In this document: one piece after another, positions 22,830-58,357 of the stretch
Layout: every line of letters begins with the position of its first letter
Numbering within the stretch: the stretch's first letter is position 1
Origin: a virus
DNA: 64,000 nucleotides
IMG/VR virus record: IMGVR_UViG_3300035698_018653
Span: 1-64,000 of that record
Reading direction: 5' to 3' (one strand)
Made by a program: the position numbers and the translations under genes
The notes under the pieces: generated by a model
Seen by the model: the letters and a program-made list of their open reading frames with translations, nothing else
What the model was told of the DNA's origin: nothing
Databases searched by the model: none

Positions 22830-22830
22830 T

Positions 22831-27154: not shown

Positions 27155-27175
27155 TTTTGTATAGGAGAAAATAAG

Positions 27176-41819: not shown

Positions 41820-42745
41820 AAATATTGATTACCGGAAACGCTGGCTTCATCGGAAGTAATATAGCGGATAGATTAATAGAAGAAGTACATAAAGTTGCCG
41901 GAGTAGATAATTTTTTAACTGGCAATATTGAAAATATAAATGAAAAAGTACATCAATATTATTATTCTTTAACAGATGAAAAACAAATGGATATTGTTTT
42001 TAGAAATTTTAAACCGGAAATGGTTTTCCATTGTGCTGCCTCTTATAATGATGCAGATAATTGGAATAGAGATATAGAAACAAATTGTGTTGGAACTTCA
42101 AATATAGTAAAGTGTTGTCAGAAGTACAATGTTAAAAAATTAGTTTATTTCCAAACAGCTTTATGCTATGGGGATTTTATTGAGCAACCAATAACCTTAA
42201 GTCACCCAATCAATCCTACAAGATGTTCTTATGCTATCACTAAAACAACGGCAGAGCAAATAATTGATATGAGCGGAATACCTTGCCTTACTTTTAGAAT
42301 GGCAAATGTTTATGGGCCGAGGCATTTGAGCAGCTGTATTCCCACTTTCTATTTAAAGCTAAAGAATAGAGAAAAAACCATTATTACAAATACCAAAAGA
42401 TCATTCGTATATATTTCAGACTTAGTTGATTTAATCGTTAAAACAATGGACAGTAAGATTACTGGCGTTTATCATTTATCTACATTACAAGAGGTTTCTA
42501 TTAAATTTATATTTGAAGCTATGGCAGAATTGATGAATATAGACATAAGAGATATTGAAGTTAATTATCAAGAGCCAAAAGAAGATAATGTAAAAACAAT
42601 ATTGCTTGATAATTTAAAAACAAAAATGGATTTTTCTGACTGGTACCCTAAAGTTGGCATAATAGATGGGTTAAAAAGATCAATAGAGTGGTATAATAAA
42701 AATAAATTTGATAAAACATTTACTCATTTGAAGTTAGGGAAATAA
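41816..42745 (+). CDS. NAD-dependent nucleotide-sugar epimerase/dehydratase
   Basis: Extended SDR with GNAGFIG at 7-13, FHCAASYND, TALCYGD and the catalytic SYAITKT (YxxxK). It also has FRMANVYGPRHLS and RSFVYISDLVDLIV, all in family order. GTG start inside the previous stop. It probably makes or interconverts the nucleotide sugar used in this block. Confidence 0.85.
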   Translation: MKILITGNAGFIGSNIADRLIEEVHKVAGVDNFLTGNIENINEKVHQYYYSLTDEKQMDIVFRNFKPEMVFHCAASYNDADNWNRDIETNCVGTSNIVKCCQKYNVKKLVYFQTALCYGDFIEQPITLSHPINPTRCSYAITKTTAEQIIDMSGIPCLTFRMANVYGPRHLSSCIPTFYLKLKNREKTIITNTKRSFVYISDLVDLIVKTMDSKITGVYHLSTLQEVSIKFIFEAMAELMNIDIRDIEVNYQEPKEDNVKTILLDNLKTKMDFSDWYPKVGIIDGLKRSIEWYNKNKFDKTFTHLKLGK

Positions 42746-42746
42746 A

Positions 42747-43217
42747 ATGGAAGGCTTATATTTTGGTTTGATGGACAACTTTGTTATGATAATTGGTGCT
42801 TTTTTTGGTTTGAATTTGGAGAGACTTTTTTCAAAAAGAGACAATGGATTGGGGGCGGTTATAGGTGCGGGGATAGGGAATGCTATTTCAGACTTTTTAG
42901 GTGGTGTAGTAGAGGGCAATATGTCACTAGCCTATGGAACTGCACTTGGGTGCATGCTTTGTTTAGCGATTATTCCACTTTTTGTTATTATTATTAGATT
43001 TAAAAAACCATCTGCGATAGCTGAATATAGATTTCAGTTAGATAAAGATTTATTTATAACGGCAAAAGAAAAAAGAATAAAAGGCAATGAAGGAAAAACA
43101 ATAGAGAACACTACAAGATACATTTTGTCAATTTTGTTTTCAAAAATATTGATACATAAAGAAAAGCATGAAAGAGTAAATGTATTAACCCTATGTCAAA
43201 AGGAGAAGATAAAGTGA
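42747..43217 (+). CDS. Membrane protein, 156 aa
   Basis: Hydrophobic segments at about residues 8-25, 35-53 and 62-85, Gly-rich (GLGAVIGAGIGNAISDFLGG), followed by a basic soluble tail. The first half resembles small phage membrane proteins with a GLxDNxVMIxGA start. Function unknown. It ends in a GTGA overlap with the next gene. Confidence 0.6.
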   Translation: MEGLYFGLMDNFVMIIGAFFGLNLERLFSKRDNGLGAVIGAGIGNAISDFLGGVVEGNMSLAYGTALGCMLCLAIIPLFVIIIRFKKPSAIAEYRFQLDKDLFITAKEKRIKGNEGKTIENTTRYILSILFSKILIHKEKHERVNVLTLCQKEKIK

Positions 43218-43465
43218 TATACTTGATAGGGTTTGGATGTTTTTTATTGGGGTATATACTTTCATCTATAAGGTGTATTATATGGTATAATAAATTAATT
43301 AATAAACAGGGAAAGCGCTTTGAAGGGGTAATGAAAAAAGTAGTTTGTCCACATATATCGCCAAGAATAGGTGATGGAGAACAATATTGTTGTGACCAAC
43401 AAAAGAAATTAACCGGAACACATCATATGCTTGATGATAATAAATGGATATATTTAATTAATTAA
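43214..43465 (+). CDS. Small membrane-anchored Cys protein, 83 aa
   Basis: GTG at 43214 overlaps the previous stop and follows AAAAGGAG; an ATG 21 bases upstream in the same frame lacks a ribosome site. An N-terminal hydrophobic segment (residues 2-20) is followed by VCPHIS and YCCDQQ near the C-terminus. Not recognised. Confidence 0.5.
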   Translation: MIYLIGFGCFLLGYILSSIRCIIWYNKLINKQGKRFEGVMKKVVCPHISPRIGDGEQYCCDQQKKLTGTHHMLDDNKWIYLIN

Positions 43466-43477
43466 GGAGAAGATAAA

Positions 43478-43633
43478 ATGAGCAATAACGAAAAAGATTT
43501 AGAAAAGATTTTTGAAGGGCTTTGGAAGGATAAACTGTTTGATAAATGGTTTAATGGTGGAAATACAAAGGCAAAAGATATTTGTAAAAAGTCTTTTATG
43601 TTTGGTGTAAAATTAAAGGAGAAAAAAGAATAA
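43478..43633 (+). CDS. Hypothetical protein, 51 aa
   Basis: ATG after AAGGAG at good spacing; the stop overlaps the next ATG (TAATG). A charged, aromatic, helical mini-protein (IFEGLWKDKLFDKWF). Not recognised. Confidence 0.55.
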   Translation: MSNNEKDLEKIFEGLWKDKLFDKWFNGGNTKAKDICKKSFMFGVKLKEKKE

Positions 43634-44601
43634 TGAATTTTGTAAATGTCTCTGACACAATGGTTGGTGTAAAAGACGGAAAGAATATTACAAATTTTCC
43701 AGGCATATATCCGTTCTTTGACGAAAGAAATAAGTTTACTAACATAATTGGTGTCGGGAATAAAAACGGAATAGATAAAAATATTGATTTGCTAAAAATA
43801 AAAAAAGTATTTAAAGGGTGTAAGTTTGTTTTTAATGGTCGTCTTGCTTCTTACCTAATAAAGAACTGGGATTTTATAGTTTCTAATTTTGATGGTATTA
43901 TGGGTGCGGAGTTAAATAAAAATCATCCGAAGTCATTGAATATGGTTCATTCTTCCATGGCACGAAGCATGCCATATAAGGGTTTTTATTGGGAACCAAC
44001 AAACGAAAAAAAGGATTTTGATTTTAGTATCTTATCTAAAATAAATGATTATAAGAATAAGAGATGGGGGCGTTGTTTAAAATTAATTGATATTCTCTGC
44101 ACCTCCAAGCTTAAGGGCATACTTATAACGCAAAGTGGTGATTTAAATAAGGTTTCAGAGCTGAAACAGCACGTTAAGAGCGGATATTTAAAGATATCTA
44201 ATAATATAGACGAAAGAGAGTTTCACAGGCTTCACAACAGGGCTAGAGTCGGTATATTCCCAAATACACTGGATAGCTTTCCCAAGCATATGATAGAGAG
44301 TATACTTTCAAATAAGCCAATAATATTTTCGTCTGATTTAACTATGGGCAAAGAGATTGCGTTAGAGTTTGGTATAAAGCTAAATTTTGACAATAGAAGA
44401 TCTTATAAGAGAGTAAAGACTTTTTTGAGAGAGGGATATAAAGAATATACTACAAATAGGATAAAATATATTTGGAAGTATTCATTTGAAAGCGTATCTG
44501 CTTTTTGGGCTTCTGAAATTAATAGATTATTTAAAACAAAATTTAAAAGAGTTTATATGTTTAATCATTATCAAAGGTTAAAGGAAAATAAATTGATATG
44601 A
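43633..44601 (+). CDS. Glycosyltransferase-like protein, GT-B
   Basis: Two-domain GT-B appearance. GILITQSGD starts the second domain. RARVGIFPNTLDSFPKHMIES, ILSNKPIIFSSD and EIALEFGIKL form the donor-site region. Starts on the stop of the preceding mini-gene. Confidence 0.62.
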   Translation: MNFVNVSDTMVGVKDGKNITNFPGIYPFFDERNKFTNIIGVGNKNGIDKNIDLLKIKKVFKGCKFVFNGRLASYLIKNWDFIVSNFDGIMGAELNKNHPKSLNMVHSSMARSMPYKGFYWEPTNEKKDFDFSILSKINDYKNKRWGRCLKLIDILCTSKLKGILITQSGDLNKVSELKQHVKSGYLKISNNIDEREFHRLHNRARVGIFPNTLDSFPKHMIESILSNKPIIFSSDLTMGKEIALEFGIKLNFDNRRSYKRVKTFLREGYKEYTTNRIKYIWKYSFESVSAFWASEINRLFKTKFKRVYMFNHYQRLKENKLI

Positions 44602-44834
44602 ACAAATTTAAAAAGTGTTGTGATTGCGGAACGTACGAGCATCAAGTATTAATGCCAATTAAGGGTAGGGTTCAGGGAATAGATTTATGTATATCTCATA
44701 TAGTTGCCGCCTTAAATGCCGGTAATGTAATAACAGAAGCTTCTTGTTGCGGACACGGTAAAATAGACGGAAGTATAATTTTAGAGGATGGAAGGGAATT
44801 AGTGATTAAGAAATGGAAAAAAGGAATAAATTAA
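44598..44834 (+). CDS. Conserved-type phage Cys protein, 78 aa
   Basis: CCDCG at residues 7-11 and CCGHGKIDGSIILEDGREL near 50-68 resemble a small phage family with a CGHG...DGR signature and no known function. A Cys/His metal site is likely. Overlaps the preceding glycosyltransferase by ATGA. Confidence 0.6.
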   Translation: MNKFKKCCDCGTYEHQVLMPIKGRVQGIDLCISHIVAALNAGNVITEASCCGHGKIDGSIILEDGRELVIKKWKKGIN

Positions 44835-44838
44835 TATT

Positions 44839-45657
44839 ATGGGAAAGAATTTTTTAGACAAAGATCACACTAAAGATTCGGACATAAAGAATTTTATACA
44901 AGAGAGTAGGATTGAGAATAGAAAGCCTTTCTCCCGTGACCTGATTTCCATTTGTGTATCCATAAAGAACAGAAGTAGATTTAAGATTGGCAAGAAAGAG
45001 TATAAGCCGTTTGTTCATTTTATCCATTCCATTGTTAGGCTCCCAAAGCATTTAATGAATATTGAATTGATCATAGCAGACTTCTTTTCTGATGATTATC
45101 CGTTAAAAGAATGGATTCCTTTCGAGTCTCAACACATTAAGTATAAGATAGTGTCTGTCCCTGGTCCATTTTCGAGAGGAAAGGGGCTAAATGCGGCCGC
45201 TAAGCAGTCTAAAGGCAAGTATCTATTCTTTACCGACGCAGACATGCTATTAAGCACACAGGTGATTGAGAGGGGCTTACATTATGCTAAGAAAAGTAAG
45301 GCTTTCTTTCCCATTGCTTTCCGCCATGTTGATGAGCAATTAAAAGTTGGAAGGTGGTTTCAAAGCGGATTCGGAAATATGTTTTTAAGGAGGAGTCAGT
45401 TTGAGAAACGTGGTGGATATATGGAGCACGATAGGTGGGGGCGAGAGGACTTTTATTTTCATAGACAACTTGTTCAGAAGAGTCAAGTAAAATGTGTAAG
45501 GGAACAAATACAAACCTTCTATCATCAATTCCACCCAGACGATGTTGTTTGGAAAAATAGATTTGTAGAAAAAAATGTTTTCAAAGAAATCCAGGCATCG
45601 TATACTATTAGTAAAGGAAATAAAGAGCATTTTGATAAAAATAGGAGCAAGAAATGA
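44839..45657 (+). CDS. Family 2 glycosyltransferase with GT7-like C-terminus
   Basis: SICVSIKNRSRF begins the GT-A fold. GKGLNAAAKQSKGKYLFFTDADML contains the DxD at Asp133-Asp135. GNMFLRRSQFEKRGGYME and WGREDFYFHRQL near 195-205 match the C-terminal acceptor/base motif of chondroitin-synthase-like enzymes. Good family fit; sugar unknown. Confidence 0.82.
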   Translation: MGKNFLDKDHTKDSDIKNFIQESRIENRKPFSRDLISICVSIKNRSRFKIGKKEYKPFVHFIHSIVRLPKHLMNIELIIADFFSDDYPLKEWIPFESQHIKYKIVSVPGPFSRGKGLNAAAKQSKGKYLFFTDADMLLSTQVIERGLHYAKKSKAFFPIAFRHVDEQLKVGRWFQSGFGNMFLRRSQFEKRGGYMEHDRWGREDFYFHRQLVQKSQVKCVREQIQTFYHQFHPDDVVWKNRFVEKNVFKEIQASYTISKGNKEHFDKNRSKK

Positions 45658-46187
45658 ATATTAAAAACGACACCAAAAAGATAAGGAAGGCAGTAAGAGA
45701 TAATTTTACATTTAAGTCAGCTATACCGTATGTAAATTTTATGCAGACTATAGGGAAGGTTGCGACAGATAAAATAAGGATAGAGTTAAAGCTAAAGAAT
45801 GAGGGTAATTTAAATATTGGAACGTTGTATTTACATTATAGCATAAAAGACAAGAGTTATATAATAAGTTCAAAATCTGGGTGCTTTACCTATAAACATT
45901 TTAAGGATAAAATTTTTAGTGTTTTAAGTGAGGTAAATCATGGAACAAAAATAGTCAATAAGACAGATAATATTTTTATGGATAATAATTATTTAATTAA
46001 AAGAAGAGAAGCAAAAAAGTTAAATCAATTACAGTTAGCGAAATTATTAGGAAAGAATGTAAAGCAGATACAAAGATATGAAATAAGCGGAAGTGTTCAG
46101 AATCCTTATGGCAGAACATTAAGGGATTTAGCTATAATACTTGATCTTGATTTAAATAAGTTATTTATGTTAGGGAAAAAGAAATGA
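45654..46187 (+). CDS. HTH (XRE-like) DNA-binding protein with N-terminal domain
   Basis: Residues 118-177 form an XRE-type HTH (KLNQLQLAKLLGKNVKQIQRYE, read in two parts around the turn) like the small protein at 8110. The N-terminal 110 residues are an unrecognised beta-rich domain. A regulator is likely. It overlaps both neighbours by ATGA. Confidence 0.65.
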   Translation: MNIKNDTKKIRKAVRDNFTFKSAIPYVNFMQTIGKVATDKIRIELKLKNEGNLNIGTLYLHYSIKDKSYIISSKSGCFTYKHFKDKIFSVLSEVNHGTKIVNKTDNIFMDNNYLIKRREAKKLNQLQLAKLLGKNVKQIQRYEISGSVQNPYGRTLRDLAIILDLDLNKLFMLGKKK

Positions 46188-46807
46188 TAGATAAAATATT
46201 ACTTGCTATATGGATAGGGGTAATTATATTTGCCTGGTGGTATCCACTTAGAAAAAGAAAAAAGAAAGGTGAGTTTCAAGACACAAGCGATTATCAAAAA
46301 TGTATAAAGAAAAATAAAGAAGGAAAATATTATCTTGATAAAAATGCCACAAAGATAATATTTGGTGATTATGATAAACCATTTAAAACTCCTCACTCTA
46401 AAATATGGGATGAAAAACCAATGAGTTTTGATAAATTTTTTAAAGAGCTAAACAATAATATAATAGATCACGGATGGGGAGTTGAGTTTAAATCCATTAA
46501 AGATGGAGAAGAGAAAAAATATATTCAATGTAAAAAATGTGGGTCAAAAAGACAAATAATAAGTACGGTTCCGGCTTTCTGTCTTAATTGTGATAATGGA
46601 TTATATGATCTTCCTTGTGAAGTTGATATAGAAAGTAAAATGGGTGATATATCACAAGCAATGATAGAGGATTTTGAAAAAAGAATATTAGATGGAGAAA
46701 GCGATATAAAGAATCCAAAAGGATTATTTAATAATCGTGAAATGATTGCTAATGCAATTAAAAACTCAAAAGAATTTAAGGAGAGATATGGGAAAGATCA
46801 AGATTAA
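46184..46807 (+). CDS. Membrane-anchored zinc-ribbon protein
   Basis: A hydrophobic N-terminal segment (residues 3-20) is followed by a basic stretch and a soluble domain with CKKC and CLNC 15-20 residues apart (about residues 112-132). The C-terminal helix is charged. Function not evident. Confidence 0.6.
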   Translation: MIDKILLAIWIGVIIFAWWYPLRKRKKKGEFQDTSDYQKCIKKNKEGKYYLDKNATKIIFGDYDKPFKTPHSKIWDEKPMSFDKFFKELNNNIIDHGWGVEFKSIKDGEEKKYIQCKKCGSKRQIISTVPAFCLNCDNGLYDLPCEVDIESKMGDISQAMIEDFEKRILDGESDIKNPKGLFNNREMIANAIKNSKEFKERYGKDQD

Positions 46808-47162
46808 TGAAGTTATGCTAGAGAGATTAAAGCTTAATCATTCGGTAATAATATCTAAAGACGCTATTGGTCAAGCAATGAAACCAATTTTTAATACATT
46901 ACCTGATCAGGACGCTATAAATATATTATTTAGAAATTACGTTGCTTCCGAAGTTCAAAAGAAAATTCAAATACAATACCCAAAGGATTGGTGGAATGCC
47001 TTTAAAGAAAGATGGTTTCCAAATTGGTTAAAATGGAGATATCCAGTTATATATAGAAAGCATGATTTTTCACCTAAAGTACTTTATCCTTTCATGAAAA
47101 TAAGTTTACCTAACGAAAGGCGGTTTCCAATAGTTATAGAATCAATAGAGGAGAAAGAATAA
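46788..47162 (+). CDS. Hypothetical protein, 124 aa
   Basis: ATG at 46788 follows AAGGAG at 4 bases; the longer frame from 46746 lacks a ribosome site. Trp-rich central part (WWNAFKERWFPNWLKWRYP) of the kind common in phage proteins of unknown function. The stop overlaps the next ATG. Confidence 0.6.
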   Translation: MGKIKINEVMLERLKLNHSVIISKDAIGQAMKPIFNTLPDQDAINILFRNYVASEVQKKIQIQYPKDWWNAFKERWFPNWLKWRYPVIYRKHDFSPKVLYPFMKISLPNERRFPIVIESIEEKE

Positions 47163-47722
47163 TGACTTGTATAATTGGCTGGATTAAAAACAAAAAGATG
47201 TATATGGGTTGTGATAATATCGGCTCTAATGGGTCTATAGTTATACAAAGGAATGACAGTAAAATATTTACAAGAAATAACGAAATGATTTTTGGATATA
47301 CTTCATCTTATAGAATGGGTCAGCTTTTGAGATATTCGCTTAAGATTCCTTTGCATGATCCCAAGATACCTGATGACGAATATATGAGTACGAAGTTCAT
47401 CGATGAAGTTAGGAATTGCCTAAAAGATGGTGGCTATATGATTAGAGATAATAATGAGGAGTCTGGTGGAACATTTCTTGTTGGATATAAAGGTAAGCTA
47501 TATCTTATCTCTGATGATTTTCAAGTTGGAATTCCTTCTGATGGTTTTTTCTCCGTTGGTTGCGGAATGTATTATGCATTAGGGGCAATGAAAGTTCTTG
47601 TAAAATCAAATAAAAATCCAGTGGCGATAATAGAGGAGGCGTTGTCTATCGCAGAATATTATAGCCCCGGTGTTCGTGGACCATACCAGATAGATCACTT
47701 AGATATAGGGGAGAAAAAATAA
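47162..47722 (+). CDS. Proteasome/HslV-like Ntn hydrolase
   Basis: After removal of Met1 the chain starts Thr1-Cys-Ile-Ile-Gly. Counting from that Thr, Asp17 (GCDN) and Lys33 (DSKIF) fall exactly at the catalytic positions of proteasome beta and HslV. GCGMYYALGAM corresponds to the GSGxxxA segment around Ser129, with Cys for Ser. No ATPase partner such as HslU is in the window. It could be a self-contained phage protease or peptidase. Starts on the previous stop and ends on the next start. Confidence 0.75.
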   Translation: MTCIIGWIKNKKMYMGCDNIGSNGSIVIQRNDSKIFTRNNEMIFGYTSSYRMGQLLRYSLKIPLHDPKIPDDEYMSTKFIDEVRNCLKDGGYMIRDNNEESGGTFLVGYKGKLYLISDDFQVGIPSDGFFSVGCGMYYALGAMKVLVKSNKNPVAIIEEALSIAEYYSPGVRGPYQIDHLDIGEKK

Positions 47723-48693
47723 TGAAAAGAGTTTTAGTTACAGGTGCCAGCGGGTTCGTCGGGTCACACTTACTTGACTTACTTCTTGACGATATTGATT
47801 GTTCTGAATGTGAAGTTCACGGTACAATGAGGTACAGGAGCAATCTTGATAATATAAAACATAACATAGGAAAAGATTGCCTTAAGCTGCACACCTGCGA
47901 TTATACAGATCAGAAGTCTGTCGATGAGCTTATTAAGGAGGTTAATCCACATAAGATATTTCACCTGGCAGCTCATTCCTTTGTTCCTGATTCGTTTCAT
48001 ATGCCTCACTATATGCTTGATAATGTAAAGATGACTTTAAATATTTTGGAGTCGGTTAAAACGCACGCTCCAAATTGTAAGGTACATATCGCAGGTAGTT
48101 CCGAGGAGTATGGGATGGTAGAAGCAAGCGAATGCCCTATTGACGAAACGCAACCATTAAGGCCGATGTCACAATATGGTGTCTCTAAAATTGCTTGCGA
48201 GTATCTTGCTTTTCAATATCAAACAACTTATAATATAAAGGTAATAGTAACCAGGAGTTTTAATCATACTGGACCACGCAGAAATTCAAGATTTGTTTGT
48301 AGTCATTTTGCTCGTGAGCTTGCACTTATGAATATGGGCAAGAAAGCGTATTCGATAGAGCATGGCAATCTTGACGCTATACGTGACTATACAGATGTAA
48401 GAGATATAGTAAGGGCGTACTGGGATTTGTCTGAACTTGAAGAAGAAATTAAATATCCAATTAATCTTTGTAGCGGTAAAGGACATAAGATAGAAGAAGT
48501 ATTAAATATGCTTCAGAGTATGTCGGGCATTTCCCCTCAAAGGAATTGGGTTGAGAGCAGGATGAGACCCTCTGATGTTCCGTTGCTTGTTGGTAGTAGT
48601 GAGAAAGCAAAGATGCTTATAGGGTGGAAACCGGAAATTAATTTTAAGAAAACATTAGAAGATCTATATGATTATTGGCTTGAGAACGTATAG
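47722..48693 (+). CDS. gmd: GDP-mannose 4,6-dehydratase-like enzyme
   Basis: Extended SDR of 323 residues: TGASGFVG at 7-14, SFVPDSF, GSSEEYG, QYGVSKIACEYLAFQY (YxxxK), RSFNHTGPRR and AIRDYTDVRDIVRAYW. It ends in RPSDVPLLVGSSEKAK and GWKPEINFKKTL, the C-terminal signature of GDP-mannose dehydratases and RMD-type reductases. It would supply a deoxysugar donor (rhamnose or fucose type). Ends in TAG followed by TAA three codons later. Confidence 0.83.
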   Translation: MKRVLVTGASGFVGSHLLDLLLDDIDCSECEVHGTMRYRSNLDNIKHNIGKDCLKLHTCDYTDQKSVDELIKEVNPHKIFHLAAHSFVPDSFHMPHYMLDNVKMTLNILESVKTHAPNCKVHIAGSSEEYGMVEASECPIDETQPLRPMSQYGVSKIACEYLAFQYQTTYNIKVIVTRSFNHTGPRRNSRFVCSHFARELALMNMGKKAYSIEHGNLDAIRDYTDVRDIVRAYWDLSELEEEIKYPINLCSGKGHKIEEVLNMLQSMSGISPQRNWVESRMRPSDVPLLVGSSEKAKMLIGWKPEINFKKTLEDLYDYWLENV

Positions 48694-48726
48694 TTAATAA
48701 AATAATTTTTCAACTTTTTAAATATA

Positions 48727-48776: not shown

Positions 48777-49577
48777 ATGAAAGAAAGTACTTGTTTGTTT
48801 GTAATTGACCCTCAAGTTGACTTCTGTGACCCCGTAGGAAACTTATTTGTACCGGGAGCAGACGAAGATATGAGGCGTTTATCGTCAATGGTAATAAATA
48901 ATAAGGGAGAGATAGATGATATTCAGTTGACTCTTGACTCCCATCACTATGTCCACGTGGCGCATCCTTGCTCGTGGATAGACAGTAAAGGAAAGCATCC
49001 TGACCCGTTTACAGTTATTACAGTAGAGGACGTTGAGAAAGGAACGTGGATGGCAACTAATCCTGGGTTCAGAGATAGATATAAGGAATACGTACAGAAG
49101 CTTCAGGACAATAATCGATACGTACTTTGTATCTGGCCTTATCATTGCCTTATTGGTAGCCCCCATGCCGCTATCTCTCCTGATTTTTACGCCTCCATGA
49201 TTTCCTGGGAACGTCTGTATGCTGTAGCCGGAAAGACCACTAAGGGTTCAAATATATTTACCGAGCATTACTCTGCTGTTAAAGCAGACGTACCGGATGA
49301 CGAAGATGTAGGAACTCATTTAAATACCGATGGGCTGATTAATGTTTTAAAGAAACACGATAGTATCCTTATAGCTGGAGAGGCACTGTCACATTGCGTG
49401 GCCTCTACCATTAGAGATATAGCTTCTGAGTTCTCTGACGAGCAGGTTAAGAAGTTTGTCTTGCTTGAGGATGCTTCGTCACCCGTTACCGGTTTTGAGA
49501 AGTTGGGAGAGGATTTTGTAAACGATATGGTTGCGAAAGGAATGAGAATTTCCAAAACAACTGAATATTTTAAATAG
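48777..49577 (+). CDS. pncA: Nicotinamidase (PncA-like)
   Basis: Converts nicotinamide to nicotinic acid. Asp11 (VIDPQVDFCDP) is the catalytic acid. Asp54-x-His56 with His123 in WPYHCLIGS supplies the metal site, as in PncA (D-x-H ... WPxHC). Lys157 is a candidate for the triad Lys, and Cys207 in GEALSHCVAST is the nucleophile. At 266 residues it is longer than bacterial PncA and closer to larger eukaryal/phage forms. Ends in TAG overlapping the next AGGAG. The gene set downstream (nadE, pncB) supports the substrate. Confidence 0.85.
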   Translation: MKESTCLFVIDPQVDFCDPVGNLFVPGADEDMRRLSSMVINNKGEIDDIQLTLDSHHYVHVAHPCSWIDSKGKHPDPFTVITVEDVEKGTWMATNPGFRDRYKEYVQKLQDNNRYVLCIWPYHCLIGSPHAAISPDFYASMISWERLYAVAGKTTKGSNIFTEHYSAVKADVPDDEDVGTHLNTDGLINVLKKHDSILIAGEALSHCVASTIRDIASEFSDEQVKKFVLLEDASSPVTGFEKLGEDFVNDMVAKGMRISKTTEYFK

Positions 49578-49587
49578 GAGATTGACC

Positions 49588-50352
49588 ATGAAATTAATGA
49601 ATGTAGATGCAAGCGAAGTGGCGAAGTCGGTACAGGGTTTTGATTATAGCCACATTGAGTTTGATAAGTTAGGCGCTCCAGAATATACCATTGTTGCTAT
49701 CGTTACAGATAAGTCAGGTTCAGTATCGGAATTTAAAACTGAGCTGGAGAATATTAATAAGACTTGCGTGGAGTCCTGCCAGAAATCTCCCAAAGCGGAG
49801 AACTTACTTATTCGGTCCACCGCTTTTAATGGTATTGACGGAATAGAGGAGCTTCACGGCTTTACATTACTTTCTGCTATTGATATTAATCAGTATGACG
49901 GAAGTATTGAGGCGGACGGTATGACTCCGCTCTATGACGCAACTCTTGACGGTATAGATACCGTTCTTGATTATTCAAAGAAGCTGTATGACCGTCAGTA
50001 CTTTTGTAACGCAATAGTATTTGTTATTACCGATGGCATAGAGAACAGTTCGCACTCTGGTTCTGTTTCTAAGATTAAAGATGCCATTAGTAAAATAAAG
50101 AAAGGAGAGATGCTTGAGTCTTTTACTTCTGTACTAATCGGAGTGGGGACGGAAGACGATCAGGTCAAAGATTTCCTGGAGAATTTTAATAAGGAAGCCG
50201 GCTTTGATCAGTATGTAGAAATTACAGAAGCAACCCCACAGAAGCTTGCCAAGCTTGCGAAGTTTGTAAGCCAAAGTGTTTCCAGTACGTCGCAAGCTCT
50301 TGGAACGCAAGGCCCGTCTCAGCCTATTGATATTAAAACCGTAACTATCTAA
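49588..50352 (+). CDS. TerY-like vWA domain protein
   Basis: A 254-residue von Willebrand A domain with a full metal-adhesion site: DKSGS at 41-45, TPLYD near 112, and VITDGIEN near 140. Single-domain vWA proteins of this type (TerY) occur with a PP2C phosphatase and a protein kinase in tellurite-resistance-type stress systems. Exactly those two genes follow, with TAATG and ATGA overlaps. ATG at 49588 follows AGGAG. The metal-dependent ligand is unknown. Confidence 0.85.
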   Translation: MKLMNVDASEVAKSVQGFDYSHIEFDKLGAPEYTIVAIVTDKSGSVSEFKTELENINKTCVESCQKSPKAENLLIRSTAFNGIDGIEELHGFTLLSAIDINQYDGSIEADGMTPLYDATLDGIDTVLDYSKKLYDRQYFCNAIVFVITDGIENSSHSGSVSKIKDAISKIKKGEMLESFTSVLIGVGTEDDQVKDFLENFNKEAGFDQYVEITEATPQKLAKLAKFVSQSVSSTSQALGTQGPSQPIDIKTVTI

Positions 50353-51152
50353 TGAATTCTAATTCGTATTTTGAGATTGGATCTTCTCACCTGATCTGCC
50401 AGGACTATGCTCTTTCTGGTAGGTCAGGTGATGGGGGTCTTCAGTATGGGATTATATCTGATGGTTGTAGTTCGTCAAAGCATTCGGAAGTGGGCGCTCA
50501 GATATTATCTTTTGTAGCAAAGTATTGCGTAACACTTTTATACCCACGTATGGATTTCTTAGGGGAGACACTAAGAGATTTTATAATTGATAGGGTAGAA
50601 AAGTTAAGAGCGCTTTATGGTTTACCGGAAGAAGCTCTTGACGCAACTTTATTTATTGTTATTTATGCCGATGGTTTCTGGAGTGTATTTGGTTGGGGTG
50701 ACGGTACAGTTATAATTGAAAAACCATTTGGCGTAGTCAATATTGAAATGATAGAGTACAAACAAAACGCACCTTACTATCTTTCTTATTTGAGAAATTG
50801 CGACAGAAAAGAAAGATATATGAAAGAGTTTAATGATAACAATATAATTCAATCTAGTTATGGTACCTTAAGTACTCCCAGTAAAGTTGAAAGACATGTT
50901 GAAGCTCCATTCTTTTATTCGACTGCTGACGACGAAATTAAATCGATAACTGTTTGCTCAGATGGAATATCAAGTTATATAGACGAATTTGCAAATCCTG
51001 TTGGTATTTTTAAGATGGCCCATGAATTTATTGGTTTTAAAAGAACTAACGGAGAATTTGTTAAATCAAATATGATGTTTCTTAAAAGAAAGATGGAGAG
51101 GGAAGGGATTCAGCATTATGACGATATAAGTTGCGCAACGGTAACGTTATGA
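50352..51152 (+). CDS. PP2C-family Ser/Thr phosphatase
   Basis: GSSHLICQDYAL corresponds to motif 1 (GxR..NED). ISDGCSSSKHSEVGA is the DG motif with the metal Asp. VCSDGISSYID and HYDDISCATVTL are motifs 8 and 11. At 266 residues it is a minimal PP2C. It lies between the vWA and kinase genes and is translationally coupled to both, so it probably reverses the kinase's phosphorylation. Confidence 0.83.
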   Translation: MNSNSYFEIGSSHLICQDYALSGRSGDGGLQYGIISDGCSSSKHSEVGAQILSFVAKYCVTLLYPRMDFLGETLRDFIIDRVEKLRALYGLPEEALDATLFIVIYADGFWSVFGWGDGTVIIEKPFGVVNIEMIEYKQNAPYYLSYLRNCDRKERYMKEFNDNNIIQSSYGTLSTPSKVERHVEAPFFYSTADDEIKSITVCSDGISSYIDEFANPVGIFKMAHEFIGFKRTNGEFVKSNMMFLKRKMEREGIQHYDDISCATVTL

Positions 51153-52846
51153 GCAAATCAATAAAAGTATTCCGTAAGGGTAAGCAACCATTAACGCTTA
51201 CCGAGAATCACTATAAGGGTGGTGGTGGAGAGGGAGCAGTATACAAAAGAGATAGATATGCTTATAAAATATATCATGATCCTTCAAAGATGATTTCGGA
51301 AGATAAAATAAAAGAACTTAAAAAGATAAAGAGAAAGAATGTTTTAAATCCTATTGATATTTTATACAATAGCAAAAATAAGCCTATTGGGTTTATGATG
51401 AATTATGTCAAAGATACAGAATATCTTTGTAAATTATTTGTTAAGAACTTTAAAGATCAAAATGGAATTTCAACATCTAATATAACAAATATAGTAATCG
51501 AGATGGAAAAAACATTATCCGATATACATAAATATAATATGCTGGTAGTTGATTATAATGAAATGAATTTTCTGATAGATAAGAAATTTAGTATTCCTTA
51601 TTATATAGATGTAGATTCGTGGCAGACTAAAGATCATAAAGCAAAAGCTTTGATGGAGACAGTTAGGGATAGGGTAACGAAGTATGGAGAGTTTACCGAG
51701 CTGACTGATTGGTTTTCGTTCGCTGTAGTAACGTTCCAGCTTTATACTGGTCTTCACCCTTATAGGGGCGGCAGACACCCTAATTATAAGCCTAGAGACT
51801 GGTCAAAGAGGATGGATGACAACGTATCGGTATTTAATAAAGATGTAGCGCTTCCAAAATTTATACCAAGCTTTTCTTTTATACCAAAGAATTATCTTGC
51901 ATGGTATCAGGAGATATTTGAAAAGAAAGTAAGAAGCGCACCCCCTTCTGTAGCTGGGACAGTTTCTATGCCTTCGATAGTGGTAAAGGTTTCTGGAAAT
52001 GATATATTTGATATTGAGTTATTAGGAAGCTTTACCGGAAATATAAAAGGCGTTTATTATATCGATGGAAATAGATATATAATGACAAATAAGAATGTAT
52101 ATTTTAATACTGACAATAAAACAATATTTACTTTCGGTAGCGATATAAAAAACATAAGGGTGGGAATGGCTTCTATATTTAATGATACATCTCCCGTTAT
52201 CGCATATATAAAAGATACTCAATGTATTTTTCTTGACCTACGGAGAACTTATCAGACCGCTATATTGGCAGATGATTTTATGGAAGCTAACAATGCAATA
52301 TATACGGTACATGGTGGCAAGCTTATAGAGAATACGTTTGAGAAGTTTGGAAAGATAATTCATAAGACCAAGAATGTATGCAATATATATGAGAGCGCAT
52401 ACAAAGTATTTGACAGTATTGTATCTCAAGATATTATGGGTACATGTTGGCTTGCGATTCCGTATGATATAGGTAAATGTGCTCACGTAAGAATGAAAGA
52501 GCTAGACGGATATAGAATTATTGACGCTAAGTATTGTAATCGAACTGCCGTTATTATCGGAGAGAAAGCAGGACTTTATAATCTCTTTACAATATTCTTT
52601 TCTAAAGATGGTCATTCTGTATATGATATAAAGAAAGATGATGTAAGTTATCATTCAATAAATTTTGTAAGAAAAGATGAAGCTTGTGTACTTATAGACA
52701 ATGAAAAGATGACTTTATTTGTTGATAATATAGGCAGGAAGGAACTAAAAAATCCACCACTTGATCTTTCAATGAAAATGTATTGTGAAAATAGCGACGT
52801 TATGTTTGCTAATGAAAATAAACTTTATAAAGTGAGGATGAAATGA
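51149..52846 (+). CDS. Ser/Thr protein kinase of the TerY-P triad type
   Basis: ATG 51149 overlaps the phosphatase stop. Residues 24-33 (GGGGEGAVYK) are the Gly loop and Lys40 (YAYK) the ATP lysine. VVDYNEMNFL gives Asp135 and Asn140 of the catalytic loop, and IDVDSWQ at 153-159 replaces DFG. The IDxDSxQ form is characteristic of kinases found with TerY and PP2C. The kinase domain ends near residue 275. The remaining 290 residues are beta-rich, possibly a sensor or propeller domain. Substrate unknown. Confidence 0.85.
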   Translation: MSKSIKVFRKGKQPLTLTENHYKGGGGEGAVYKRDRYAYKIYHDPSKMISEDKIKELKKIKRKNVLNPIDILYNSKNKPIGFMMNYVKDTEYLCKLFVKNFKDQNGISTSNITNIVIEMEKTLSDIHKYNMLVVDYNEMNFLIDKKFSIPYYIDVDSWQTKDHKAKALMETVRDRVTKYGEFTELTDWFSFAVVTFQLYTGLHPYRGGRHPNYKPRDWSKRMDDNVSVFNKDVALPKFIPSFSFIPKNYLAWYQEIFEKKVRSAPPSVAGTVSMPSIVVKVSGNDIFDIELLGSFTGNIKGVYYIDGNRYIMTNKNVYFNTDNKTIFTFGSDIKNIRVGMASIFNDTSPVIAYIKDTQCIFLDLRRTYQTAILADDFMEANNAIYTVHGGKLIENTFEKFGKIIHKTKNVCNIYESAYKVFDSIVSQDIMGTCWLAIPYDIGKCAHVRMKELDGYRIIDAKYCNRTAVIIGEKAGLYNLFTIFFSKDGHSVYDIKKDDVSYHSINFVRKDEACVLIDNEKMTLFVDNIGRKELKNPPLDLSMKMYCENSDVMFANENKLYKVRMK

Positions 52847-53583
52847 AAACTAAAGATCAAATAGTTTTTTGGCTTAAACAAATGTTAATTAAAACAAAGA
52901 AAGATGGGTATGTAGTGGGTTTAAGTGGCGGTATTGATTCGGCGGTTGTTGCTTGTTTAATAAAGGAAGCCGTTCCTGAAAATAGCCTTGGAATTATAAT
53001 GCCATGTTTAAGCGATATATTAGATAAAAATTATGCAGTAAAATTAGCAAATCAAATAAATTTAAGGTATTCAATAAAAGATTTAGAAAGTACCTATTAT
53101 CATTTTATAGGAGAAATCGAAGGAGATGGATTAAGGTCCGATGGGTATAATACAATGCTTGGCAATATAAAAGCAAGATTAAGGATGACAACATTATATC
53201 ACACCGCTTCTCTACATAATTATCTTGTGGTTGGCACCTCTAATAAAACAGAAATTTATCTTGGTTATTATACTAAGTATGGAGATGGTGGAGTTGACCT
53301 TGAGCCGATAGGGGATTTATTAAAGAGAGAAGTATATGAACTTGGTAATTATTTTAATATACCTCCCGAAATACAAATAAGAAAACCTTCTGCTGGATTA
53401 TGGGAAGGACAAACAGATGAAGATGAGTTAGGCTTAAGTTATGAGATAATGGATAAGTTTGTAGAGAAACATCCAACAAGAGAATTAAAAGAATGTGATA
53501 GTATAAAGCTTTGTAATTTAAGAATGAATTCAATTCATAAAAGAAATACGCCTGAAATTTGTACCATTAAAAAGGAGTTATAA
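52843..53583 (+). CDS. nadE: NH3-dependent NAD synthetase
   Basis: Amidates nicotinic acid adenine dinucleotide to NAD. GLSGGIDSAVVA is the ATP-pyrophosphatase loop. GNIKARLRM, VGTSNKTEIYLGYYTKYGDG and KPSAGLWEGQTDEDELGLSY are diagnostic of NadE. There is no glutaminase domain, so ammonia is the amide donor. It is coupled to the kinase by ATGA and followed one base later by the phosphoribosyltransferase. Confidence 0.95.
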   Translation: MKTKDQIVFWLKQMLIKTKKDGYVVGLSGGIDSAVVACLIKEAVPENSLGIIMPCLSDILDKNYAVKLANQINLRYSIKDLESTYYHFIGEIEGDGLRSDGYNTMLGNIKARLRMTTLYHTASLHNYLVVGTSNKTEIYLGYYTKYGDGGVDLEPIGDLLKREVYELGNYFNIPPEIQIRKPSAGLWEGQTDEDELGLSYEIMDKFVEKHPTRELKECDSIKLCNLRMNSIHKRNTPEICTIKKEL

Positions 53584-53584
53584 A

Positions 53585-54703
53585 ATGATTATGCCTGATG
53601 ATCACAAACCGTATATTGATTTATATTTCTTAAGGGCAAAAGAGATACTACAGAAGGAGGGATTAAACCCAATAGTAAGGGCTAAAGTATTTATTAGAAA
53701 AGTAAAAGATGGAAGTAATCAGGTTTATGGAATAAATGAAGCAGTTGATATTATAGATAGATATAGTAATTTATTTAAGAATGGCGGTAAGGTTTATGCT
53801 CTTGCCGAAGGGTCTGAGTATTACTCTAAAGAAACTATTATGATTTTAGAGGGAAGGATACAAGATTTTATTGATTTAGAAACAATGTATTTGGGGGTTA
53901 TTAGCTATAATACAACAATGAAGAATGACAGCAGACATGTTGATATAGATAAAGTAAAAACAAACGCAAAAGAAATAGTTGACGTTGTTGAAGGTAGACC
54001 AATTACGTATATGGGGCCAAGGCACTGGCATTATATTTACGATTATGATATTACAGAAGCCGCTTTAAGTGGTGGATTTACAAATTGTTCTACGTATAAT
54101 GGTTCAAGAGAAAAAGTTGTTGGAACAATTCCCCACGCTCTCGAAAATATTTATGCCTGGAAGTACGGAAAAGAAAATGCAGTATTAACTTCCACACTTG
54201 CTTTTGATAGACATATGAATATAGATATCCCCAGAATAGCGTTAGTTGATTATAACAACCGGGAAATAACAGATTCATTGGTTTGTGCTTATGTTTTAAA
54301 AGATAGACTATCCGGTGTAAGGGTCGACACTTGCGGCGAGAATCACATGGAAGATATTGGCGCTGGCCCTGACGAACTCGCTATTACTAGTGGAGTTTCT
54401 GTAAGGGGAGTATATCAGTTAAGAAAGAAATTAAATGAAGTAGGTTTTAAAAATATTAAAATAACTCTTTCAAGTGGATTTGGAGATATTGAAAAGGTAA
54501 AAAGTTTTATAGAGGCAGAAAAGTATTTTGGGGTTAAGCTATTCGATTCTTTAGGGGTTGGTGGATTGTTCGAATCAAGAATGGCTACCATGGACATATT
54601 TGAAGTGGGGGAAAATCTTAATCGCATGAAATTGATAAGCAAAGAAGGCAGAGAGATAAATGATCCTAGTATTCCTTCAGAATTAAAGGAAGTAAAAATA
54701 TAA
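53585..54703 (+). CDS. pncB: Nicotinate phosphoribosyltransferase
   Basis: Makes nicotinate mononucleotide from nicotinic acid and PRPP. ETMYLGVISYNTT, GPRHWHYIYDYDITEAALSGG, TNCSTYNGSREKVVGTIPHA and LSSGFGDIEK are the conserved blocks of the NAPRTase family (type-II phosphoribosyltransferase barrel). AAGGAG lies 8 bases before the ATG. Together with PncA and NadE it covers all steps of nicotinamide-to-NAD salvage except adenylylation (NadD). Confidence 0.88.
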   Translation: MIMPDDHKPYIDLYFLRAKEILQKEGLNPIVRAKVFIRKVKDGSNQVYGINEAVDIIDRYSNLFKNGGKVYALAEGSEYYSKETIMILEGRIQDFIDLETMYLGVISYNTTMKNDSRHVDIDKVKTNAKEIVDVVEGRPITYMGPRHWHYIYDYDITEAALSGGFTNCSTYNGSREKVVGTIPHALENIYAWKYGKENAVLTSTLAFDRHMNIDIPRIALVDYNNREITDSLVCAYVLKDRLSGVRVDTCGENHMEDIGAGPDELAITSGVSVRGVYQLRKKLNEVGFKNIKITLSSGFGDIEKVKSFIEAEKYFGVKLFDSLGVGGLFESRMATMDIFEVGENLNRMKLISKEGREINDPSIPSELKEVKI

Positions 54704-55304: not shown

Positions 55305-55377
55305 CGGGGTGTAACTCAGCGGTTAGAGTGCCTGTCTGATATACAGGTGGTCGGTGGTTCAATTCCATCCATCCCGA
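55305..55377 (+). tRNA. tRNA-Ile (anticodon GAT)
   Basis: Cloverleaf of 73 nt. Acceptor CGGGGTG pairs with CATCCCG. The anticodon stem CCTGT/ACAGG encloses loop CTGATAT with GAT at 55338-55340. The T arm is GGTGG-TTCAATT-CCATC. Discriminator A; CCA is not encoded. It lies directly before the radical SAM gene. Confidence 0.88.
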
Positions 55378-55398
55378 TTATTTTAATGAGGAGTTGAT

Positions 55399-56370
55399 AT
55401 GAAGTTAGAGGATATAGGGTTTTATACATTATCGGATCAGAGGGCAAAGGGGGCTTCCGAAGTTTCTAACTTAAAGCGCTGTGAGCTTATACTTACAGAT
55501 AGATGTAATTTTAAGTGTACTTATTGCCGAGGCATAAAGAAAGAATATCAGGGTGATCTTGACTTTAAAGAAGCAGAAAGAATTGTAAGTTATTGGCTGG
55601 ATAACGAATTAGAGAATATCCGGTTCAGCGGTGGAGAGCCAACACTGTATCAGGGGCTGAATGAGCTTGTTGAGAGGTGTAAATTCTGTGGGGTTAAGAA
55701 TATAGCCGTGTCCACTAATGGATATTCTGAAATGGACGTATATGAAAGATTAATAAAAGATGGAGTAAATGATTTTTCAATATCTTTAGATGCTTGTTGT
55801 TCTGTTATAGGAAACGAAATAAGTAATACTAAGGGTAGCTGGGAGAAAGTTGTTGATAATATAAGGAAGCTTTCAAAGCTAACATATGTTTCTGTCGGTA
55901 TGGTATTTACAGAAGAGAATATTGACTCTTGTGTTGAGAGTGCATTATTTGCAGATGGTCTTGGTGTTTCCGATATTCGTATTATTCCTTCTGCTCAATA
56001 TAACGAAGCTTTAATAATGCTTGCAAAATTACCAGAGGATATATTAAATAAATATCCTATTTTAAAATACAGAATAAACAATATAAGAAACGGAAGACAC
56101 GTAAGGGGAATACAAGAAAGCGATTGTAATAAATGTTGGTTAATGATGGATGATATGGCTGTAATGAAAGGATTTCATTTTCCATGTATTATATATTTAA
56201 GGGAAGGTGGAGAGCCAATAGGGAAGGTGGGCGAGAATTGCAGGAAAGAAAGAGTCAAATGGATAATGGATAACAACACAAAAGAAAATATTATATGTAA
56301 AAATAATTGCCTTGATGTTTGTATTGATTATAATAATAAAGTTGAATCTTTTAACAAGGAGTTAGTATGA
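55399..56370 (+). CDS. Radical SAM enzyme (MoaA/SPASM-like)
   Basis: CNFKCTYC (Cys36, Cys40, Cys43) binds the SAM 4Fe-4S cluster, FSGGEPT near residue 76 is the SAM-binding GGE motif, and ISLDACC follows. C-terminal Cys residues (DCNKCW, CKNNCLDVC) could hold an auxiliary cluster as in SPASM/twitch proteins. AGGAG precedes ATG. Between tRNAs and RtcB an RNA-modifying role is tempting, but the substrate cannot be read from sequence. Confidence 0.85.
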   Translation: MKLEDIGFYTLSDQRAKGASEVSNLKRCELILTDRCNFKCTYCRGIKKEYQGDLDFKEAERIVSYWLDNELENIRFSGGEPTLYQGLNELVERCKFCGVKNIAVSTNGYSEMDVYERLIKDGVNDFSISLDACCSVIGNEISNTKGSWEKVVDNIRKLSKLTYVSVGMVFTEENIDSCVESALFADGLGVSDIRIIPSAQYNEALIMLAKLPEDILNKYPILKYRINNIRNGRHVRGIQESDCNKCWLMMDDMAVMKGFHFPCIIYLREGGEPIGKVGENCRKERVKWIMDNNTKENIICKNNCLDVCIDYNNKVESFNKELV

Positions 56371-56870
56371 AAGATACGATTTTTATTCATTATGGTCATA
56401 ATGAATTTAATAAGAGTAAATTTCAAAATATAAGTAATGATGGTGCTTGGATAAAGCCCAAAGGGGGGCTATGGGGTTCTCCCATTAACTCTAGTTGGGG
56501 TTGGAAAACTTGGTGTAAAGAAAATAATTTTCAAGATGATGATTTTTCTATTTATTTTGAATTTAAATTAAATATAATATATAGCAATGTTCTTGTTATA
56601 AATTCTTATGGCGATATGCTTAAACTTCCTTGGAAAAATGTCAAATACAGTGATAAAATTAAACGTATTGATTTTGAAGAAATAAATCGATGGTATGATG
56701 CTATTTATTTAACAGAAAATGGACAAAGAGAAACACACTTACCTAAATTTACAGTTAAAGACTATAAGATTGATCATTTTAAAAATCTTTACGGGTGGGA
56801 TTGTGAAAGTGTATTAGTTATGAATCCAAATATAATAGAGGAGTTAAAAAATGAAAAGTGTTATAAGTGA
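56367..56870 (+). CDS. Possible ADP-ribosyltransferase-like protein, 167 aa
   Basis: IHYGHNEF (His8-Tyr9) and KGGLWGSP (33-40) have the spacing of the H-Y...G-G-x-[YW] start of ART folds (LYHGS...GGLY). YDAIYLTENG and GWDCESVLVMNP resemble the later strands of that fold. It overlaps rtcB by 20 bases and radical SAM by 4. If an ART, it would use NAD, consistent with the nearby NAD genes. The assignment is a structural guess from motif spacing. Confidence 0.4.
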   Translation: MKDTIFIHYGHNEFNKSKFQNISNDGAWIKPKGGLWGSPINSSWGWKTWCKENNFQDDDFSIYFEFKLNIIYSNVLVINSYGDMLKLPWKNVKYSDKIKRIDFEEINRWYDAIYLTENGQRETHLPKFTVKDYKIDHFKNLYGWDCESVLVMNPNIIEELKNEKCYK

Positions 56871-58071
56871 TGTTGTAAATGGAAGTCATCTTCCAATAAA
56901 ATTATGGTTAGATAAAGACAAGATAGAAGAAAAAGCATTAGAGCAAGCAAAGAATTTAGCAAGACTCCCTTTTGCTTTTCGTCATATAGCAATTATGCCT
57001 GATGCTCATGTTGGTTATGGAATGTGTATTGGCGGTGTCGTAGCATGCAAAGGTGTAATAATTCCCTATGCTGTTGGTTATGATATTTCATGTGGTATGA
57101 TAGCTGTTAAAACTTCTTTAAAAGAAATAGATAAAGAAACCATAAAGAAAATATTTGGAGGAAGTAGTAAGTATAAGGGAGGGATAAGAAGTTGTATTCC
57201 GGTAGGTAGGGGTCATCATAGTAAAGCACAAGATGAAAGATTTATGCCCAGTGAAGAAATGTTTATGCCTGATTTTCATAACGAAAGAAGTATTTGCGAA
57301 GAGCAATATCAATCTGCTAGAAAACAAGTAGGCACTATGGGGTCAAATAATCATTTCATAGAAATACAAAAAGGAGATGATGGATATATTTGGATTATGA
57401 TTCATTCTGGAAGTAGAAATATAGGATATAGAGTTGCTGATCATTATAATAAAATTGCCGTTAAGTTAAATGAAAAATATTATTCTCAAGTTCCTAAGAG
57501 TTGGCAATTAGCTTACCTTCCTTTAGATTCAAAAGAGGGGCAAAGGTATAAAAAAGAAATGGAGTACTGTATCGAGTTCGCTAATTGTAATAGACAATTA
57601 ATGATGGAAAGAGCAAAAGAATGTTTTAATGAAATAGTTCCAGAAGTAGAATTTACAAATATAACAAATATAGATCATAATTATGCTTCTATGGAGAATC
57701 ATTTTGGTGAAAACGTAATGGTTCATAGAAAGGGGGCTACATTAGCGAGAGCAGGAAAGACCGGAATTATACCTGGTAGTATGGGCACGAAAAGTTATAT
57801 AACCGAAGGACTTGGTAATCCAGAAAGTTTTATGAGTTGCTCTCATGGTGCTGGTAGGGTTTTAAGTAGAACTAAGGCAAAGGAAGATTTAAATTTAAAT
57901 GAAGAAAAAAAGAAGATGGACGATAAGGGAATTATACACAGTATAAGAAATATAAAAGATTTAGAAGAAGCGTCATCAGCTTACAAGAATATTGACGAGG
58001 TAATGGAGAATCAAAAAGACCTCGTAAAGATACTAGTAACTTTAAGTCCACTAGCAGTTATAAAAGGCTAA
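56851..58071 (+). CDS. rtcB: RNA ligase RtcB
   Basis: GTP/Mn-dependent ligase joining 2',3'-cyclic phosphate to 5'-OH RNA ends, 406 residues. GYDISCGM holds the metal Cys81. GTMGSNNHFIE is the GTLGxxNHF motif, HRKGAT follows, and SCSHGAGR carries the guanylylated-His region. Three tRNA genes start 25 bases after it and one lies upstream, so repair of cleaved tRNA is the natural role. Confidence 0.95.
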   Translation: MKSVISDVVNGSHLPIKLWLDKDKIEEKALEQAKNLARLPFAFRHIAIMPDAHVGYGMCIGGVVACKGVIIPYAVGYDISCGMIAVKTSLKEIDKETIKKIFGGSSKYKGGIRSCIPVGRGHHSKAQDERFMPSEEMFMPDFHNERSICEEQYQSARKQVGTMGSNNHFIEIQKGDDGYIWIMIHSGSRNIGYRVADHYNKIAVKLNEKYYSQVPKSWQLAYLPLDSKEGQRYKKEMEYCIEFANCNRQLMMERAKECFNEIVPEVEFTNITNIDHNYASMENHFGENVMVHRKGATLARAGKTGIIPGSMGTKSYITEGLGNPESFMSCSHGAGRVLSRTKAKEDLNLNEEKKKMDDKGIIHSIRNIKDLEEASSAYKNIDEVMENQKDLVKILVTLSPLAVIKG

Positions 58072-58095
58072 TGCTAATGAGAACAATAAATAAAT

Positions 58096-58167
58096 TGTCA
58101 GGTACCCAAGTGGTAAGGGGACTGATTGTTAATCAGTTTGTCGCAAGTTCGAATCTTGCCCTGACAG
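58096..58167 (+). tRNA. tRNA-Asn (anticodon GTT)
   Basis: Acceptor TGTCAGG/CCTGACA, anticodon stem ACTGA/TCAGT with loop TTGTTAA (GTT), T arm GCAAG-TTCGAAT-CTTGC. 72 nt, discriminator G, CCA not encoded. A clean cloverleaf. Confidence 0.95.
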
Positions 58168-58175
58168 TAAAAATA

Positions 58176-58249
58176 ACCCGATTGGTCTATTGGATGGGCG
58201 CATGGCTACGGACTATGTTAGAGGGGTTCGATTCCTCTATCGGGTACCA
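58176..58249 (+). tRNA. tRNA-Arg (anticodon ACG), CCA encoded
   Basis: Acceptor ACCCGAT/ATCGGGT, D stem GTCT/GGGC, anticodon stem CATGG/CTATG with loop CTACGGA (ACG at 58208-58210), T arm AGGGG-TTCGATT-CCTCT. Discriminator A is followed by CCA at 58247-58249, unlike the other tRNAs here. Reading CGN with ACG normally needs A34 deamination by host TadA. Confidence 0.92.
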
Positions 58250-58257
58250 AATTTAAT

Positions 58258-58333
58258 CGTGGTGTGGCGAAGCCTGGTTCAACGCACCGGATTTTGGGTC
58301 CGGCACTCGCAGGTTCGAATCCTGTCACTACCG
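58258..58333 (+). tRNA. tRNA-Gln (anticodon TTG), irregular acceptor stem
   Basis: Anticodon stem CCGGA/TCCGG with loop TTTTGGG (TTG at 58294-58296). T arm GCAGG-TTCGAAT-CCTGT and D stem GCG/CGC. The acceptor pairs GTGGTG with CACTAC but has an extra or mismatched C at the end (CGTGGTG versus CACTACCG), so its exact ends are uncertain. Maturation or function could be affected. Confidence 0.8.
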
Positions 58334-58357
58334 AACAATTTAACAGAGGGGGAATAA

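Follow-up and report, generated by a model that had tools for sequence, protein, structure and literature searches.

A conserved pncA-vWA-PP2C-kinase module of phages and its genomic link to NAD salvage genes

Introduction

TerY-P triads combine a TerY protein bearing a von Willebrand factor A (vWA) domain with a PP2C phosphatase and a Ser/Thr kinase (Anantharaman 2012 and Gao 2020, as cited in PMC11090510), and the published kinases carry a zinc ribbon or an OB fold at the C-terminus (PMC11090510). Here we analysed the first 64,000 nucleotides (the window) of IMG/VR virus record IMGVR_UViG_3300035698_018653 (126,906 bases in all), in which a TerY-P-like triad is embedded among genes for the salvage of nicotinamide adenine dinucleotide (NAD). 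Together with the nicotinamidase-like gene pncA, the triad forms a four-gene module; the module and its link to NAD genes are well supported.

Destruction of NAD+ is a widespread form of host defence, and only a few phage answers to it are known (NARP1 and the NadV routes). NARP1 (Adps and Namat) rebuilds NAD+ from the products of NADases (PMC12774641), and a survey of NAD genes in viruses reports that phages synthesize NAD by means of NadV, NadM and NadR (PMC9503650). Ter genes and NadV-type NAD synthesis are also described in a jumbo-phage survey (PMC7824862). The present locus resembles the NARP1 and NadV/NadM/NadR routes in that the rebuilding of NAD+ would be phage-encoded, but differs from them in using the deamidating Preiss-Handler route (PncA, PncB, NadD and NadE) and in carrying the triad, neither of which is described there (PMC12774641, PMC9503650). 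PncA, NadE and nicotinamidase find no mention in PMC9503650, and no such module appears in the consulted passages of PMC7824862. Adps and Namat were not named among the genes scanned, and no model of either was searched. In agreement with the initial annotation, which knew of no described phage system with this gene order, the full-text literature searched contained no paper joining pncA, the triad and NAD elements; subscription papers lie outside that literature and an earlier mention is possible.

Results

Gene organization of the locus

The source record belongs to a tailed phage, since it has matches to portal, major head, tape-measure, primase and UvsX proteins; these virion and replication genes bear out that the triad is carried by a phage, to which the genes of the window belong. 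The locus comprises the following features.

48777..49577, + strand: pncA, nicotinamidase-like cysteine hydrolase, 266 residues, core gene 1 (profile against PDB)
49588..50352, + strand: TerY/YegL-like vWA protein with intact metal-ion-dependent adhesion site (MIDAS), 254 residues, core gene 2 (profile alignment to YegL)
50269..50292, + strand: Ser-rich C-terminal motif S-x-S-x-S-x-x-S of the vWA protein, residues 228-235 (conservation)
50352..51152, + strand: PP2C-type phosphatase, 266 residues, core gene 3 (Pfam PP2C_2, 1.8e-11)
51149..52846, + strand: Ser/Thr-type protein kinase with predicted C-terminal β-propeller, 565 residues, core gene 4 (hhalign and AlphaFold2)
52007..52843, + strand: predicted β-propeller tail of the kinase, residues ~287-565 (AlphaFold2 model)
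52843..53583, + strand: nadE, NAD synthase without glutaminase domain, ammonia-dependent type (PF02540)
53585..54703, + strand: pncB, divergent nicotinate phosphoribosyltransferase (NAPRT) (NF006415 and QRPTase_N)

All six genes from pncA to pncB lie on the same strand without a single internal stop, and are spaced by +10, -1, -4, -4 and +1 nt in the order pncA-vWA-PP2C-kinase-nadE-pncB. The start of the PP2C gene overlaps the vWA gene by 1 nt, whereas the kinase start overlaps the PP2C gene and the nadE start overlaps the kinase stop by 4 nt each (ATGA). Thus, the three overlapping open reading frames (ORFs) at 49588-52846 and their operonic setting between pncA and nadE-pncB, both proposed in the initial annotation, are as described there. 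The G+C content is 0.41-0.42 in pncA and vWA, compared to 0.31-0.36 from PP2C to pncB and 0.326 in the window, and this higher value at 48777-50352 may reflect a separate or later acquisition of the pair.

A four-gene module conserved across diverged loci

Searches of viral contigs with the kinase sequence alone found seven relatives, a kinase profile found 72, and a pncA profile independently yielded 80 loci that were kept; the window PP2C as sole query found no relatives among viral contigs. Profile searches of all loci, counting only kinases less than 90% identical to each other, revealed all four genes in 98 non-redundant loci, 11 of which are located in genome bins of bacteria or archaea and the rest in phage or virus records. 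The order pncA-vWA-PP2C-kinase is kept in 92 of the 98, the other six being rearrangements, and the core genes share one strand in every locus with a median pncA-to-vWA gap of ~10 bp. Because this order is so widely kept, pncA belongs to the core unit; the initial annotation correctly placed it beside the triad but treated it as a mere flank. The full order up to nadE-pncB, in contrast, is not fixed, as pncB and nadE change place around the core.

Among the 72 kinase-seeded viral loci, pncA was found within the fetched flank in 67, vWA in 67 and PP2C in 71. Four of the five loci lacking pncA are truncated on the upstream side, and the fifth (L056) has pncA ~12 kb off, further along the same contig (visible in L126). 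The contigs are up to 619 kb long, and the module-bearing ones are therefore largely those of huge phages. In INPHARED (50,697 phage records), the kinase search and the pncA-family search matched the same four records and no others; the whole module is present there in no cultured phage, only in three uncultured huge phages and one fecal fragment. Altogether, it is nearly certain that the four-gene module is real.

Sequence and structural features of the core proteins

The top PDB matches of the PncA family profile are nicotinamidases (yeast Pnc1, PDB 2h0r, 2.3e-14). The D-K-C triad D11/K156/C207 and the Zn ligands D54/H56/H123 are kept in 94-95 of 95 homologues.

On its own, the vWA sequence has diverged too far to match Pfam VWA. 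Its family profile, however, aligns with E. coli YegL (hhalign 95%, E 2e-8) from the MIDAS into the Ser-rich tail, and the protein matches PHROG 7371 (9e-12). The MIDAS (D-x-S-x-S...T...D), previously reported as intact, is so both in the window and across 95 homologues, with D41, S45, T113 and D149 invariant and S43 being either Ser or Thr. The Ser-rich motif aligns with the YegL tail FSWLSSSLRSVSRS. Because they are so well conserved (S228 in 91, S230 in 95, S232 in 92 and S235 in 93 of 95 homologues), these four serines are the obvious candidate phospho-acceptors. Stand-alone relatives of the vWA protein, annotated as hypothetical, are encoded by the cultured Rhodococcus phage Trina (L012) and Arthrobacter phage Mimi (L013), with no annotated PP2C or kinase nearby. 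In a human fecal phage fragment (L014, MT837596.1), a DUF2828/DUF7788 protein with a vWA-like domain (2255-3706) lies directly upstream of pncA-vWA-PP2C-kinase.

The PP2C protein aligns with E. coli PphC (hhalign 65%, 6e-5), and residues D18, D37-G38, D117, D204-G205 and D257-D258, including the metal-site Asp residues, are invariant in 95 homologues. The kinase matches Pfam Pkinase at 8e-6, under the Pfam cut-off of 31.7 bits, and aligns with the kinase domain of E. coli YegI (hhalign 98.5%, 1.5e-15), with its IDVDSWQ motif matched to IDSDSFQ, which places it in the same Ser/Thr kinase subfamily. Its catalytic residues are nearly invariant among 79 homologues (K40 in 77, D135 in 79, N140 in 77 and D154 in 79). 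Such near-invariant active sites in all four proteins are what selection for four working proteins would look like.

The β-rich tail of ~290 residues noted earlier could be specified further as a predicted β-propeller. AlphaFold2, run on alignments of 72-73 homologues from which rows of GenBank phage records were left out, modelled the tail alone (~280-290 residues) with a pLDDT of 94.2, a pTM of 0.91 and 28 strands, and the whole kinase with a pLDDT of 93.6. The 28 strands would imply seven four-stranded blades. Structural similarity search using Foldseek showed that the modelled tail resembles WD40-like propellers (Nup159, Vps18, Nup133 and WDR91), with E values of 3e-6 to 7e-6 and a TM score of ~0.5; its best viral match is a phage Ser/Thr kinase.

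The profile matches to YegL, PphC and YegI, together with the same gene order yegL-pphC-yegI in E. coli (pphC being yegK), indicate by sequence comparison that the triad is homologous to this TerY-P-like triad, the Ser-rich vWA tail being common to both. The three proteins thus fall into the expected families (YegL, PphC/PP2C_2 and YegI) rather than unrelated ones; since the core order is also kept in relatives, neither of the two findings that the initial annotation named as refuting it was obtained. However, the C-terminal part of YegI has a weak helix-hairpin-helix match and the profile match stops with the kinase domain; moreover, E. coli has no nicotinamidase or NAD genes adjoining the triad, and yegJ lies on the opposite strand between pphC and yegI. 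Compared to TerY-P, the phage module shares three homologous proteins in one operon, namely a vWA protein with MIDAS, an adjoining PP2C-like phosphatase and a kinase fused to a C-terminal domain. It differs in that this domain is a predicted β-propeller instead of a zinc ribbon or OB fold, with no CxxC anywhere in the kinase, and in being phage-borne and tied to pncA and NAD salvage, whereas the neighbours of TerY-P are Ter, restriction or CoCoNuT genes. The triad is therefore TerY-P-like but not a textbook TerY-P, so that the type proposed initially holds for the vWA, the PP2C and the kinase subfamily, but not for the kinase C-terminus.

Genomic link to NAD genes

The window nadE matches PF02540 NAD_synthase (1.5e-65) and TIGR00552 (225 bits against a cut-off of 63.65); some loci instead have a NadE that contains a glutaminase (CN_hydrolase) domain. 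The window pncB matches NF006415 at 1.6e-42, though under its cut-off, and QRPTase_N at 3e-6, and relatives exceed the TIGR01514 cut-off. The window NAPRT is only 16-22% identical to those of related loci and thus of a different lineage, which suggests that the activity rather than one particular gene was retained; by sequence, the function appears to have been kept while the gene was exchanged. A fuller pathway is found in L002, with the order pncB-pncA-vWA-PP2C-kinase-nadE-nadD, and in L007, which also encodes PncA, PncB, NadE and NadD beside the triad.

When all 2,686 ORFs in the neighbourhood were clustered with no preselection and families present in at least 8 loci were counted, the commonest non-core neighbours were nadE (33 loci), pncB (31), Nudix (26), nadD (14), NADAR (12) and metallophosphoesterase (10). 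Another family, found at 12 loci, represented the ORF antisense to pncA and was excluded. Among the 33 records that span 100 kb or more, 17 have NadE no further than 10 kb from the kinase (expected 2.1) and 14 have NAPRT within that distance (expected 1.9); none of 20,000 random placements was as extreme, in a test that depends on incomplete records. NadE or NAPRT is encoded in 27 of these 33. We therefore regard a functional link of the module to NAD salvage as very probable.

Relatives in cellular genomes

Twenty-four loci come from genome bins, 15 of them with pncA. NrtR, recognized by its Nudix domain and NrtR winged helix (2e-25), lies directly upstream of the module on a 511-kb contig of Acidobacteriota (L084); at L084:4003-8152, PARG and NrtR stand beside pncA-vWA-PP2C-kinase, surrounded by ordinary chromosomal genes. 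This arrangement resembles the NrtR regulons of NAD salvage, but differs in that the set includes the triad and that the proposed control is post-translational. Of 297 Acidobacteriota genomes sampled, a single one has the full-length kinase. In the cultured soil strain Variovorax sp. SRS16 (L282, plasmid 2, an 801-kb replicon), PP2C-kinase-pncB is followed by NADAR and NadE at 608964-626358, making this strain a tractable relative of the system. L080 and L081 (Thermoplasmatales and Lokiarchaeota bins) and L091 (a 1.36-Mb Armatimonadetes contig) are cellular or misbinned phage.

Discussion

We propose that the locus encodes a phage Preiss-Handler salvage module under a TerY-like reversible phosphorylation switch, probably serving to rebuild NAD+, a reading that we consider evenly balanced between right and wrong. 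PncA would deamidate nicotinamide, the waste of host NADases, to nicotinate, which PncB would convert to nicotinate mononucleotide, NadD to nicotinate adenine dinucleotide and NadE to NAD+. NadD would be supplied by the host in the window phage and by the phage itself in some relatives. As an adaptor, the vWA protein might use its metal site to dock on one of the NAD enzymes, be it PncA or another. With the β-propeller directing it, the kinase would then phosphorylate the vWA Ser tail, the docked enzyme or both, and PP2C would reverse the modification, turning salvage on or off during infection. Control of NAD enzymes by phosphorylation has about an equal chance of being true or false. The initial annotation likewise supposed that the triad could sense the state of infection or defence and act on NAD metabolism or host proteins through phosphorylation. 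Nicotinamide inhibits NAD-consuming enzymes such as sirtuins; control of salvage may therefore be needed, with nicotinamide removal being timed. The purpose would be to replace the NAD+ that host defences destroy; this counter-defence role falls slightly short of an even chance.

Several observations weigh against this proposal. No nadD was found in the 126,906-base record, which is possibly incomplete, and six of the 33 long records, possibly fragments, encode neither NadE nor NAPRT. Most phage NadE genes are not accompanied by the triad, which only ~1 of 80 NadE-seeded loci has, and 2 of 11 RtcB-seeded loci, a small control set, have pncA, nadE or pncB matches without it; hence, finding NAD genes in such phages is not unusual. 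The distance matrices of the four proteins correlate well above the null maximum (Spearman 0.59-0.75 against 0.20), which speaks for co-inheritance, but this correlation leaves shared phage ancestry in. In addition, some of the cellular kinases in the family are solitary (L086 and L094), and no vWA or pncA lies near the PP2C-kinase-pncB genes of Variovorax.

Among the alternatives, plain metabolic support, in which NAD is raised for phage replication and the phospho-switch tunes flux to the host state without relation to NADase defence, is unlikely. A Preiss-Handler set would work in any nicotinamide-releasing host, and phage ligases and RNA-repair enzymes use NAD (PMC7824862). However, the NADAR, Nudix and PARG genes nearby suggest the kind of ADP-ribose chemistry that is typically involved in NAD conflicts, and known phage NAD pathways have been interpreted as counter-defence (PMC12774641, PMC9503650).

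It is rather improbable that the module is a TerY-P-type system for defence or superinfection exclusion against rival phages, in which PncA would act as effector or sensor while the remaining NAD genes would form a separate salvage set that lies nearby by coincidence. Modules of TerY-P-like type whose kinase has an OB fold have been reported to act as stand-alone systems against phages (Gao 2020, cited in PMC11090510), jumbo-phage Ter genes have been proposed to exclude rivals (PMC7824862), and the kinase weakly matches PADLOC PD-T4-6 (9.8e-5). By contrast, no conserved nuclease, membrane or other toxic effector lies beside the module, its conserved neighbours are NAD/ADP-ribose enzymes, and its most constant partner is a metabolic enzyme, pncA. 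Moreover, the vWA and PP2C proteins have no PADLOC match, and PADLOC gave no TerY-P-named match for either the window or the E. coli triad.

Equally doubtful is an auxiliary-gene hot spot of huge phages, where the kinase would act on host proteins for takeover, independently of PncA. Unrelated ORFs often lie between the core genes, and NAD genes are frequent in such phages; nevertheless, the near-fixed four-gene order in ~100 diverged loci and on the cellular contig with NrtR, the clustering of NadE and NAPRT far above chance inside the same records, and the finding that pncA of the module family does not occur without the kinase in INPHARED all speak against it. Chance or artefact as the origin of the module was rejected, given the 98 loci, the shared order in 92 and the recurrence of the core genes among the neighbours.

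If salvage under a phosphorylation switch is correct, the module, present in ~100 diverged loci mostly of huge phages, would extend the known answers to NADase defences by one that is regulated through phosphorylation. The poorly understood TerY-P and YegL-PphC-YegI triads would gain a concrete and assayable candidate client in a nicotinamidase. More tentatively still, the loci may represent a widespread undescribed class of phage NAD reconstitution with nicotinamidase as the client of a vWA/PP2C/kinase-propeller phospho-switch, which would also uncover a class of substrates on which TerY-P-like triads act more generally.

Other features of the window

Downstream of the NAD genes, an RtcB RNA ligase and a radical SAM protein lie beside four tRNA genes (55305-58334), suggesting an RNA-repair region adjoining the module. 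Long ORF runs at 12304-28000 and 36000-48700 resemble glycosyltransferases, methyltransferases and sugar-nucleotide enzymes, and Pfam identifies a GDP-mannose dehydratase at 47722-48693; the runs are suggestive of a phage-carried surface-glycan cluster. A small protein at 47162-47722 weakly matches a proteasome subunit (Ntn-hydrolase; E 7e-4, under the Pfam cut-off).

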